From: Halorhabdus sp. BNX81
GTDB taxonomy: Archaea; Halobacteriota; Halobacteria; Halobacteriales; Haloarculaceae
NCBI RefSeq assembly: GCF_029229925.1
Contig: NZ_CP107254.1
Location: 992,001 to 1,056,000, forward strand
Reading direction: 5' to 3'
Length of the DNA: 64,000 nt
Program-made: the position numbers and the translations under genes
Part shown: positions 980 through 11,078 of the stretch, piece after piece
Numbering within the stretch: the stretch's first letter is position 1
Layout: the number at the start of each line of letters is the position of its first letter
Notes under the pieces: model-generated
Told to the model about the DNA's origin: nothing
Database searches by the model: none
Seen by the model: the letters and a program-made list of their open reading frames with translations, nothing else

Positions 980-3421
980 TCAATCCTCAAACGATCCGGG
1001 ATCGTCCGCTGCCTCCACGATGTCGACCGCTGCGACGTTCGCCGCCACGTCGTGCACCCGGATCACGTCCGCACCGCGCTCCGCGGCGAGTGCCGTCGCC
1101 GCCACCGTGGGCTCGTAACGCTCATCCGGGCCTCGATCGATCATCTCGAACATCGACTTGTGCGAGTGGCCGACCAGCAGCGGACAGCCGAGCGCTTCGA
1201 ACTCTCCGAGGCGATCGAGAACTTCGAAGTTCTCGGCGTCGGTCTTCCCGAAGCCCAGGCCGGGATCGACGAGGATCTGAGAGCGATCCAGACCGGCCTT
1301 CTCGGCGAGCAGGACACGCTCGGTCAACTCCTCGATGACGTCCTCGACCACGTCGTCGTAGTGGACCTCGTGGTCTGGATCGACCGGCGTGTCGATGGAG
1401 TGCATCACGACGATCGGGACGTCGTGTTCGGCGGCGAGGTGAGCCATCGCCGGGTCGTCGAGCCCGGTGACGTCGTTGAGGATGTCCGCGCCGGCCGCCA
1501 GGGCGGCCTCGGCGACGTCGACCTTCCGGGTGTCGATCGAGATAGTCATGTCCTCGCTTGCGAGGCGCTCGATCACTGGAACGACCCGATCGCGTTCCTC
1601 CTCGACTGGGACTGGGTCGGCTCCGGGGCGGGTGCTCTCGCCGCCGACGTCGACGATGTCGACGCCCGCCGCGATCATCTCCTCGGCGCGCTCGATCGCC
1701 TCGTCGACGGCGTTGTGCTCGCCGCCGTCGTGGAAGCTGTCGGGCGTGACGTTCAGGATGCCCATGACCGCGGTGCCATCCTCCCAGGGGTAGCCGCGCT
1801 CGTCCGGCGCGACGCCGATCTCGAGGGATTCTCTGATCTCGTCGGCAAAGGGCGAGAGGCCGTAGGGCTGGCCGTCGAGCTTCCCGGCGAGGCGCTTGAA
1901 CTGCGCGAGCGTGCCCATCATGACGGCGTCGACGTGCTCGCGATCCTGGTCCCCGAGGCCGGAGACCGCACACTCCCCGCCGAGCGAGAGCAGCTCCTCT
2001 TTGAGATACTGGGCTTGCCGTGGCTGGACGCGGGTCTTGAGCACGCGATGGACGCCCTTGCCACGCATCCGCCAGGTGCCGGCCTCGGTGACGTGGGCAC
2101 CTTCGAGGACCGCCTCGGCGTCGGGGATCGATTCGACGCGCTTGGGGACGTTCGGTCGCGTCCAGCGCGTCCGGGCCTCCCGGACGGCATAGAGCGATCC
2201 CGAGACGAGCACGGCGTCGTCCGGCCCGGCTGCGTCGAGCGTATCTGCGAGCGCGCCCGCGACATCCGAGCGCGTCCGGACGTCCGCTTCCGTCTCGGAT
2301 TCGAAAGCGTGGGCGACCACCTGCTCGTCCTCGGCGCGGTCGACGTCCGGGTGGGTGGCGGTGACGTGATCGGGAGCCGGAAGCGCGTCCGCGATGCCGT
2401 GGTGGTCCTTGTCGCACATCGCGCCGACGACCAGGTACAACTCGTCGTACTCGAAGGTGTCGAGCGTCTCGGCGACACGTTCGCAGCCGCCGGGATTGTG
2501 AGCGCCGTCGAGGACGACTAAGGGCTCGCGATCGAGCACCTCGAACCGGCCCGGCCAGTGGGCGCGACGCAGGCCGGTAGCCAGTGTTTCGTCAGCCACG
2601 TCGGCGACCTGTCGTGCGAGGGCGGCCGCGACACCGGCGTTGCGTGCCTGATGCTCGCCCAGCAGTGGGAGTCGCGTCTCGACGTGCCATTCTTGCCCCG
2701 ACAGCGTGATCGGACTCTCGATCCCGTCGCGTCCCCCGTGCTCGACCGTCAGGTCGGCGTCCTCGTCCGGGCTCCCTATACGAATGACGTCCTCGACTTC
2801 GTCGTGGATGGCAGCCAGCGCGTCGCCGGTCGCGGCCGTCACGAGCGGCGCGTCCGTGGGGGCGACGGCAGCCTTGTCCCGGGCGATCTCGTCGACGGTA
2901 TCGCCCAGGAGGTCGGTGTGTTCGAGCGTGACGCTCGTGACGGCGCTCGCGATCGGGTCGACGACGCTCGTGGCGTCGTAGCGTCCCCCGATCCCCACTT
3001 CGAGGATGGCGACGTCGACGTTCTGGCGGTCGAACTCCCAGCACGCCAGCGCGGTCAGCGTCTCGAAGAACGTCGGCGAGTCGCCGGCTGCGGCCCGGTC
3101 GGTGGCGTAGGGCTCGACTTCCTCGATGAATTCGACGAGCGCCGCTTTCGGAATCTTCCGGCCATTCACCCGGACGCGCTCGCGAACGTCGTCGAGATGC
3201 GGCGAGGTGTACAGCCCCACGTCGAGGCCCGCCTCTCTGAGGACGGCTTCGAGCATCCGTGCGGTCGAGCCTTTGCCGTTCGACCCGGCGATCTGGACGG
3301 CCGAGATCGACTCGTGTGGATCGTCCAGTGCCGCAAGTAACTCGCGAGTGGCGTCAGTCCCCGGTCTGGGGGCAAACCGCCGCAGATCGAAGAGAAAGTT
3401 TGCGGCCTCGTGATAGTGCAT
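980..3421 (-). CDS. folCP: Bifunctional folylpolyglutamate/dihydrofolate synthase - dihydropteroate synthase
   Basis: This 813-residue fusion carries two steps of folate synthesis. Residues 1 to about 420 are a Mur-ligase-type FolC, with an ATP loop (GSNGKGST, residues 46-53) and a late DGAHNPGG motif. Residues from about 550 are a TIM-barrel FolP, opening with MGILNVTPDSFHDGG and continuing with GGESTRPGA and DPGLGFGK. FolP condenses the pterin pyrophosphate with p-aminobenzoate, and FolC adds glutamate. The order FolC then FolP is the known haloarchaeal arrangement. A linker of about 110 residues (roughly 430-540) belongs to neither standard domain. Upstream, CCTAAAAC lies about 30 bases before the ATG, so the mRNA is probably leaderless. 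It stands as a single gene. Confidence 0.93.
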   Translation of the reverse strand: MHYHEAANFLFDLRRFAPRPGTDATRELLAALDDPHESISAVQIAGSNGKGSTARMLEAVLREAGLDVGLYTSPHLDDVRERVRVNGRKIPKAALVEFIEEVEPYATDRAAAGDSPTFFETLTALACWEFDRQNVDVAILEVGIGGRYDATSVVDPIASAVTSVTLEHTDLLGDTVDEIARDKAAVAPTDAPLVTAATGDALAAIHDEVEDVIRIGSPDEDADLTVEHGGRDGIESPITLSGQEWHVETRLPLLGEHQARNAGVAAALARQVADVADETLATGLRRAHWPGRFEVLDREPLVVLDGAHNPGGCERVAETLDTFEYDELYLVVGAMCDKDHHGIADALPAPDHVTATHPDVDRAEDEQVVAHAFESETEADVRTRSDVAGALADTLDAAGPDDAVLVSGSLYAVREARTRWTRPNVPKRVESIPDAEAVLEGAHVTEAGTWRMRGKGVHRVLKTRVQPRQAQYLKEELLSLGGECAVSGLGDQDREHVDAVMMGTLAQFKRLAGKLDGQPYGLSPFADEIRESLEIGVAPDERGYPWEDGTAVMGILNVTPDSFHDGGEHNAVDEAIERAEEMIAAGVDIVDVGGESTRPGADPVPVEEERDRVVPVIERLASEDMTISIDTRKVDVAEAALAAGADILNDVTGLDDPAMAHLAAEHDVPIVVMHSIDTPVDPDHEVHYDDVVEDVIEELTERVLLAEKAGLDRSQILVDPGLGFGKTDAENFEVLDRLGEFEALGCPLLVGHSHKSMFEMIDRGPDERYEPTVAATALAAERGADVIRVHDVAANVAAVDIVEAADDPGSFED

Positions 3422-10199: not shown

Positions 10200-10272
10200 G
10201 GGCGCGTAGCTCAGTGGACAGAGTTCTTGGTTCCGGACCAAGATGTCGAGGGTTCAAATCCCTTCGCGCCCG
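10200..10272 (+). tRNA. tRNA-Arg (anticodon CCG)
   Basis: The 73-base sequence folds as a full cloverleaf. The acceptor stem is GGGCGCG paired with CGCGCCC at 10265-10271, with discriminator G at 10272 and no encoded CCA. The D arm contains GCTCAGTGGACAGAG. The anticodon stem CTTGG/CCAAG encloses the loop TTCCGGA, and the T arm is GAGGG-TTCAAAT-CCCTT. The anticodon CCG reads CGG, and the G discriminator fits arginine. No intron is visible. Its 3' part, from the T loop to the end, recurs three more times downstream (see the repeat entries), which marks this gene as a likely integration target. Confidence 0.95.
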
Positions 10273-10532
10273 TGCAGCGAGTTTTCGAACGAAGTGAGGA
10301 AACGAGCGAACCGGCACGAAGGGATTTTGAATCAGGGAGTGGGAGGTGAGCGAGCGAAGCGAGCGAACGGGAGCGACTGTGGTTCAAATCCCTTCGCGCC
10401 CGTAACATTTTGCTGCGAGCATCCCGCGAGCAGCAAATGTGCCATCGAGGGGATTTGAACCCAGGCAGTCGCAGCCCGCGCAACGAAGTGAGCAGGAACG
10501 TCTGCATCCGGTTCAAATCCCCTCGCGCCCGT
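10251..10532 (+). repeat. Alternating direct and inverted copies of the tRNA-Arg 3' end
   Basis: The last 23 bases of the tRNA region (10251-10273, GGTTCAAATC through CGCGCCCGT) recur exactly at 10381-10403 and with one change at 10510-10532. Inverted copies of their first 16 bases lie at 10317-10333 (imperfect) and 10446-10461, the latter an exact reverse complement of 10510-10525. Copies alternate at 64-65 base steps, so the direct copies are about 129-130 bases apart. Each inverted/direct pair could form a long stem with a 47-48 base loop. A smaller hairpin (ACATT/AATGT plus TGCTGC/GCAGCA) fills 10405-10440. No protein-coding gene is credible here. The arrangement resembles stacked att sites left by integrations at a tRNA 3' end. 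Confidence 0.85.
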
Positions 10533-10581
10533 CCACCTTTTTACGTCGTCGGGGTTCCTCGCGCACCGTCGGACTCGCGTT

Positions 10582-11078
10582 GCTCGTCTGACGAGCCTTG
10601 CCTCGCTCCGCTCGGCAAGAAGCCTTCGGCTCGCTGCGGGAACCCGCTCTGCTCACGGACGCGAAGCGTCCGAATGCTCGCGGGCCGTGCGCGGCGCTAC
10701 GCGCCGCGACTTCGAGGCGGTTGAAAAACCGCCTCGCTGCCCGCTCGCACTATCCGTGGGAGCCAAGCTCCCACGCTATTCCCACGGTCAGCGGGACTTT
10801 TGGTCCCGCTCGACTCGCAAAAAGCTGTCCTGCAGAGCAAAGCGAAGCAGGTCTCGGTAGACGAGCGAAGCGAGTCTACCGGTGGACCAAAAACACCTCG
10901 ACCTCGCTGCTCACGGCTCCCGCTGGTCGCCGTTCGCAATTCCGAGGCTCTCCCTTCGTTCGAGCCTTGCAACACTCGGTCGAGAGAAACGGCTCGCTCT
11001 GCTCGCCGTACACTAGCATCTCTTCGCGCCCGTGGCGGATTTTTGCGGTCGTAATCACCCGACAGCATCGGGGTGATT
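10582..11078. repeat. Array of short perfect hairpins, non-coding
   Basis: At least nine near-adjacent inverted repeats with stems of 6-10 bases and mostly short loops fill this stretch. Clear ones are 10582-10596, 10597-10619, 10656-10672 (loop GAA), 10690-10708 (loop TAC), 10713-10736 (10-base stem, loop GAAA), 10755-10775 (loop CAA), 10790-10810, 10855-10881 and 11053-11078. The motif GAGCGAAGCGAG and its variants recur. A 12-base match to the tRNA 3' end (CTTCGCGCCCGT, 11022-11033) lies near the far end, so the block from 10533 is bracketed by tRNA-tail copies. Long frames are open on both strands here only because stop codons are rare in this base composition. The last stretch to 11235 has no gene I can support. 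Confidence 0.8.

Follow-up and report, generated by a model that had tools for sequence, protein, structure and literature searches.

Gene-free, hairpin-rich units carrying copies of the tRNA tail lie directly downstream of tRNA genes in Halobacteriales

Results

The tRNA-Arg(CCG) locus

The window analyzed here is a 64,000-nucleotide stretch of the genome of Halorhabdus sp. BNX81 (G000:C1:992001-1056000, where G000 is the host genome, contig 2,828,981 bp); coordinates without a genome label are window positions. The locus consists, in this order, of a tRNA-Arg(CCG) gene, two units of approximately 130 nt, a hairpin array and a degraded tRNA tail. The tRNA gene, with anticodon CCG, lies at 10200-10272 on the plus strand (ARAGORN; Rfam RF00005, 65.5 bits) and anchors the array. 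In each of the two units an anti-T-arm separates two hairpins, and the last 21 nt of the tRNA are repeated at the end.

Unit 1 (10273-10402, plus strand) is the newest by position. It contains hairpin 1, an anti-T-arm at approximately 10319-10331, hairpin 2 with what we call the type Y core, and a tail copy at 10382-10402 (plus strand), which reproduces tRNA positions 53-73 with 0 mismatches. Unit 2 (10403-10531, plus strand) has hairpin 1 at 10409-10437, an inverted T-arm of 16 nt at 10446-10461 (minus strand) that is 100% complementary to 10510-10525, a hairpin 2 carrying the type X core 'GCAGTCGCAGCCCG...CGTCTGC', and a tail copy at 10511-10531 with 1 mismatch to the tRNA tail. Beyond it lies the hairpin array, which we term the family-B element (10533-11017, no strand assigned); its skeleton is CCACCTTTTTAC ... 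TCGCAAAAAGCTG ... GGACCAAAAACACC ... GGCTCGCTCTGCTCGCC, with extra hairpins between these anchors. A degraded distal remnant of the tRNA-Arg tail follows at 11018-11032 (plus strand; ATCTCTTCGCGCCCGTG, 94%).

An earlier sequence-only reading had described a hairpin block at 10582-11078 bracketed by matches to the tRNA tail. The brackets are confirmed at 10511-10531 and 11018-11032, and nine hairpins of the block stand; the stem at 11053-11078 falls outside the array, and the key structure begins at the tRNA (10200) rather than at 10582. That reading did not include the two units before the block, the inverted T-arm, the matching of the tail to the tRNA, or the recurrence across the genome and the order.

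Hairpin density, folding and coding potential of the array

Positions 10582-11078 hold 10 non-overlapping perfect stems (6-10 bp, loops of 3-11; 76 paired bp), compared with 2.04 +/- 1.35 stems in 200 dinucleotide-preserving shuffles. The most found in any shuffle was 7, so that the excess over random which had been claimed for this block survives the comparison proposed for refuting it. The segment 10536-11034 gives a similar picture, with 9 perfect stems of at least 6 bp against 2.08 +/- 1.25 in dinucleotide shuffles (maximum 6, n=200). It ranks first in stem density among all 500-nt windows in the 64 kb, and its 68 paired bp compare with a median of 13 and a 99th percentile of 45 for such windows. 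RNA folding of the array gives -244.9 kcal/mol (z = -7.56), and 0 of 100 shuffles were equally stable.

The nine perfect hairpins found by the stem scan (no strand assigned) are at 10582-10596, 10597-10619, 10656-10672, 10690-10708, 10713-10736, 10755-10775, 10790-10810, 10855-10881 and 10945-10967. Their loops include GAA, GAAA and CAA, as had been stated. The block had also been described as free of genes, and this is borne out: a Pfam search of the ORFs across the array gave zero matches, and there is no credible protein in it. Rfam, at both gathering and relaxed thresholds, returned the tRNA only, plus sub-threshold noise.

We note that the segment second in stem density in the window, 1001-1750, is coding. 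It is covered by a long reverse-strand ORF (980-3421) that resembles folate-synthesis proteins, as judged by eye. Stem counts alone are therefore no marker of non-coding elements in this window.

Compared with the closest relative, G074, the array has substitutions at 0 of 112 stem positions and at 11 of 277 other positions (p = 0.04). The adjacent ferredoxin-like gene shows 10% substitutions in the same comparison.

Hairpin gain in the family-B element

The array is a modular element, and family-B copies are also found behind Arg-TCT, Pro-GGG, Ile-GAT and other tRNA genes. The spacing between anchors is 282 nt in the window copy and 207 nt in the G074 copy; in five other copies it is 39-60 nt and includes one hairpin. 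At Ile-GAT, a two-hairpin block present in G000 is missing from the relative G073. This block, and the larger spacing in the window and G074 copies, indicate that the array grew through hairpin gain, most of which predates the split of G000 and G074.

Perfect small hairpins also break up the distal tail copies at Asn-GTT, Gly-TCC, Val-TAC and Gln-TTG of G000. To judge from these sites, hairpins may have a preference for inserting into tRNA tails.

Units at tRNA genes in three genomes

The tRNA model identified 41 tRNA genes in G000. All of them were examined together with their flanks, as were those of two relatives, G074 (contig 3,116,795 bp) and G073 (contig 2,815,791 bp). A tail copy in G000 was accepted with up to 4 mismatches in 21, and most copies have none. 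Downstream tail copies occur at 23 of 41 tRNA genes in G000, 15 of 42 in G074 and 22 of 42 in G073; upstream copies occur at 0 of 41 in G000 and at 0 of the 125 tRNA genes in the three genomes together. The first copy usually lies 79-147 nt downstream of the tRNA. The copies have a sharp 3' boundary: identity drops from 1.00 at tRNA position 73 to 0.53 one base further on (background 0.46). At the 5' edge, identity fades across positions 50-53.

Each match to the core pattern in G000, G073, G074 and G072 is found immediately 3' of a tRNA and on its strand (coordinates compared by eye). Every unit whose position was examined directly follows a tRNA gene and bears the tail of that same tRNA, which does not fit the REP/BIME-like element that had been suggested for the block.

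The tail and anti-T-arm follow the host tRNA and the cores do not

Cores are common to units at different isoacceptors with different tails, in 282 pairs at E < 1e-4, all of them plus/plus. The type Y core, for example, is 95% identical over 55 nt between Arg-CCG and Lys-TTT. The anti-T-arm matches the host tRNA at positions 62, 63 and 64 with frequencies of 0.90, 0.76 and 0.57, compared with 0.65, 0.38 and 0.25 for other tRNAs; at position 65 the match is at background.

Tail matching was also evident at 66 loci in named genomes that have an identifiable upstream tRNA on the same strand. The 12 tail bases left free in the search have 0 mismatches to that tRNA at 46 of the 66 loci (mean 0.91), compared with a mean of 5.68 mismatches to other tRNAs and no exact matches. 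In G073, the T-stem of Ser-GGA differs from that of the relatives' tRNA, and the variant is present in the tail copy and the anti-T-arm as well.

A further case in G073 is the tRNA-Val CAC at G073:C2:227954, whose T-arm departs from that of each of the two relatives at several positions and has the loop TTCAACT. This unusual sequence recurs in the tail copy and the anti-T-arm, which gives the impression that tRNA and element were either rewritten jointly or acquired as a single locus.

Folding, strand bias and covariation

The mean folding z of 68 units is -4.2 for the tRNA-sense strand and -3.2 for the antisense strand. The cap GARC-GNA-GYGA was found 39 times on the sense strand and 0 times on the antisense strand, and a looser form of the cap 80 times and 0 times, respectively. 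Pairing was analyzed in 69 segments from 38 genomes using one helix register for all rows; the outer T-arm pairs, being fixed by the search, were excluded from the covariation evidence. In this fixed register, 74% of cells pair, compared with 51 +/- 3% in shuffled and 38-49% in slid alignments. At several helix positions, G-C, C-G, A-T and other pair types replace each other in a compensatory manner. This indicates that the folded strand is maintained, although covariation does not separate RNA from DNA and could be mimicked through palindrome correction by template switching.

Turnover between relatives

A tRNA has from 0 to 4 copies; for a given tRNA both their number and their content differ among close species, and each genome has many tRNAs with none. 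At Arg-CCG of G074, unit 1 is exactly missing from the orthologous locus: there is one tail copy, and unit 2 sits directly behind the tRNA. At Ile-GAT, G000 has a unit; in G073 there is none, and the shared flank CTATACCACC abuts the tRNA. Different units are found within identical flanks at Lys-TTT, the order and number of units vary between genomes in the Val-TAC arrays, and Ser-TGA has 1 unit in G000 compared with 3 in G074. Of the 22 arrays with several copies, 11 have the better-preserved copy on the tRNA side, 1 has it on the distal side and 10 are tied (sign test p = 0.006), which suggests growth at the tRNA end.

Distribution

The core pattern (at most 3 mismatches) was found in 94 of 148 genomes of the host's family and 198 of 394 of its order (63 of 95 genera); the reversed control pattern gave 0. 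A search for an anti-T-arm and a T-arm 30-60 nt apart, independent of the core, gave matches in 42 of 82 Halobacteriales genomes and in none of the 312 from other Halobacteriota, the 82/312 split having been counted from the genome list. Among the listed loci in named genomes, 71 of 80 are from Halobacteria by title. The repeat family specific to this lineage that the sequence-only reading had offered as one possibility is thus real: it recurs genome-wide and across Halobacteriales. The same architecture with unrelated cores is found in a Woesearchaeota MAG (L240) and in archaeon BMS3Abin16 (L243), and with a haloarchaeal-type core in Actinarchaeum halophilum (L280). No matching element was described in the open-access literature on tRNA tails and haloarchaeal repeats, subscription papers being outside the scope of the search.

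Exact core matches numbered 0 in IMG/VR, and the phage collection gave none. A looser T-arm palindrome was present in 15 viral contigs, 0 of them with the haloarchaeal core, and these matches are unrelated or bacterial-looking. Plasmids gave five weak matches, of which four were inspected: one, on a Natrinema megaplasmid, consists of a tRNA-like sequence with a unit behind it, and in the remaining three the core hairpin occurs in different contexts.

The type X core hairpin is present in other non-coding elements of haloarchaeal plasmids (L187:3890-4090, L188:3890-4080 and L189:3990-4050). L187 and L188 share a conserved element of about 200 nt, GGCGGACTCAGAAAGGGCGAGG...GAGGGCTTTC, that contains it, and the L187 element has no Rfam match. 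Separately, bacterial genomes and proviruses contain near-perfect palindromes in which inverted and direct copies of a tRNA 3' half, apparently that of tRNA-Met, surround a centre of about 12 nt. The carriers are Bifidobacterium, a Verrucomicrobia MAG and IMG/VR contigs (L228, L229, L227, L198, L200, L201, L204).

Recombinases and integrase elements

PF01797 (Y1) matches number 0 in G000, 2 in G074 and 4 in G073; the genome with the most units of the three is thus the one without a Y1 gene. The proposal that the hairpins are IS200/IS605-type ends, for which a matching transposase elsewhere was to be sought, is therefore not supported in the window's own genome. Each of the three genomes has one cas1 gene. 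Of the two tyrosine recombinases in G000, one is part of the 9.3-kb Val-GAC element. The second, which is XerA-like, matches the archaeal XerA/integron model below cut-off and has a frame of the same length in G074. Candidate enzymes for the units are a tyrosine recombinase (XerA-like in G000) or a target-duplicating integrase of the Cas1/casposase kind.

Two integrase elements were delimited, one of 9.3 kb at tRNA-Val(GAC) with a tail repeat of about 20-25 nt (G000:C1:2620305-2629586, L206) and one of 14 kb at tRNA-Arg(TCG) with a 43-nt repeat (G074:C1:93225-107299, L208). Their ends lack the anti-T-arm hairpin. In both, the distal tail is followed by sequence like the first hairpin of a unit, as seen by eye. 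The units therefore appear to be older than the integrase elements and displaced by them.

Discussion

The reading that we favor, with a probability of about 0.5, is that the units are non-autonomous mobile cassettes inserting directly 3' of tRNA genes, and that the hairpin array is the old distal end of a tandem stack. The architecture of the units, their position, the matching of their tails, their variation between species, their strand bias and their covarying stems are observed. Mobility is what we infer as the best account of them, with the variation between species taken to be mostly insertion rather than loss.

A cassette would be a gene-free segment of about 80-150 bp in which a capped hairpin is followed by an anti-T-arm, another hairpin and, last, a tRNA tail. 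A new cassette would enter beside the tRNA and leave it intact, its far side acquiring a second copy of the last 20-22 nt or so, from the T-loop to nucleotide 73. Older cassettes would be pushed downstream and then decay; the hairpin array with its eroded tail (10533-11032) would be the oldest layer, having gained extra hairpins. The recombinase may recognize the folded tRNA-sense strand via the T-loop motif, in a manner resembling integron attC sites.

Several points weigh against this. Recombination between tail repeats could explain part of the variation as loss, and the strong structure and strand bias also fit a functional RNA. The two genuine integrase elements at tRNAs have no hairpin ends. 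Conservative integration does not explain how a core that has moved to a different tRNA comes to have a changed tail. Neither an autonomous partner nor a circle was observed, and inspection of the listed units by eye revealed no terminal inverted repeats beyond the T-arm.

The main rival is that the units are structured 3'-trailer RNAs, transcribed with the tRNA and acting in cis in termination, 3' processing or as a switch, the anti-T-arm pairing with the T-arm of its own tRNA in one state and with the downstream copy in the other. The confinement of the caps to the tRNA-sense strand, the stronger folding of that strand, the tandem sheared-GA and GNA-type caps with covarying stems, the ability of either neighbor to pair with the anti-T-arm, and the array stems free of substitutions are all as this reading would have them. 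A fixed regulator is not expected to swap modules between tRNAs, however, nor to vary in copy number and content at the same tRNA among close species and be missing from many tRNAs; on balance we think it rather unlikely.

It is quite unlikely that the units are relics of integrated viruses or plasmids, with the tail repeats as attL/attR scars and the insert deleted to about 100 bp. Haloarchaeal proviruses do leave tRNA-tail repeats of 22 and 43 nt (PMC3119063), and the Val-GAC and Arg-TCG elements use the same tails. The inserts are however uniform in length and architecture, unlike random deletion products, and units were not found in haloviruses. An apparently pre-existing unit lies behind the distal tail of the real elements. 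The simple form of this model was rejected on the two genuine elements, which have no unit-like ends.

Template switching or recombination at T-arm palindromes might instead duplicate tails and perfect hairpins with no mobile element involved. The nested perfect hairpins inside family B and the tail copies suit such host-made repeats, as does the ability of palindrome correction to imitate covariation. Conserved caps, strand bias, cores common to distant tRNAs and the boundary at nucleotide 73 are left unexplained, and we regard this origin as very improbable. Movement by a Y1 transposase, as for IS200/IS605, PATE or REP/RAYT elements, would suit the hairpins, the strand-specific features and the existence of haloarchaeal PATEs and SMRs (PMC3119063), but is largely refuted for the window's genome by the missing PF01797 gene, and the duplication of about 21 nt of tail, which PATEs and IS605 elements do not cause (PMC3119063), leaves it scarcely credible.

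Comparison of the favored cassettes with known systems gives partial likenesses only. Integron arrays hold tandem cassettes at one anchor, keep structure while the sequence drifts, and carry their features on one strand. The units are likewise tandem and structure-conserved, with strand-specific hairpins; unlike integrons, they contain no coding cassettes, and their repeat is the tRNA tail. No IntI was found, G000 having the XerA-like recombinase that scores below the cut-off of the archaeal XerA/integron model, and no GTTRRRY core was seen by eye.

Elements with tyrosine integrases that target tRNA genes have the same target, a tail repeat ending at the tRNA 3' end and an intact tRNA (PMC8371274; PMC3119063). 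The units share the tail repeat that reconstitutes the tRNA and differ in being gene-free, 80-150 bp long, without integrase or cargo, and stacked 1-4 deep, with an inverted T-arm inside and cores common to different tRNAs.

A tRNA gene, at its 3' end, is also the target of the Aciduliprofundum boonei casposase, which duplicates this target and needs the T-loop motif TCAAATC in the 'leader' next to it (PMC6614799). It is a precedent for T-loop recognition with target duplication. Casposons bear genes and terminal inverted repeats, whereas the units, which are too short for genes, carry no PolB or Cas1 and showed no such repeats by eye, and their duplication is of about 20-22 nt ending at nucleotide 73.

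The PATEs and SMRs of Haloquadratum are also short, non-coding, palindrome-rich haloarchaeal repeats, in which small repeats are nested in palindromes in a manner similar to the hairpin gain in the array (PMC3119063). PATEs are related to IS605 ends, and neither type duplicates its target (PMC3119063). In contrast to the units, none is described there as tRNA-anchored or as carrying the tail of its target.

A more specific and more tentative possibility is that the units form a new archaeal chromosomal cassette system. In such a system the tRNA would serve as a leader or attI-like anchor, gene-free cassettes would be added tRNA-proximally with the tail of that tRNA, and recognition would be of the folded sense strand by pairing of T-arm and anti-T-arm. 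Any tRNA could be targeted, and the array would log past insertions.

About half of the host's tRNA genes are followed by these elements, which recur throughout an archaeal order, and no description of them was found in the open-access literature. As cassettes, they would provide a natural archive of insertions that hit essential genes repeatedly and with site precision, and both the enzyme that reads the T-loop and the means by which a mobile unit acquires a host-matched tail become testable. They also confound annotation, since the tail copies resemble virus attachment scars or tRNA pseudogenes. If the units are trailer RNAs instead, archaeal tRNA transcripts would carry a new and large class of cis-acting RNA.
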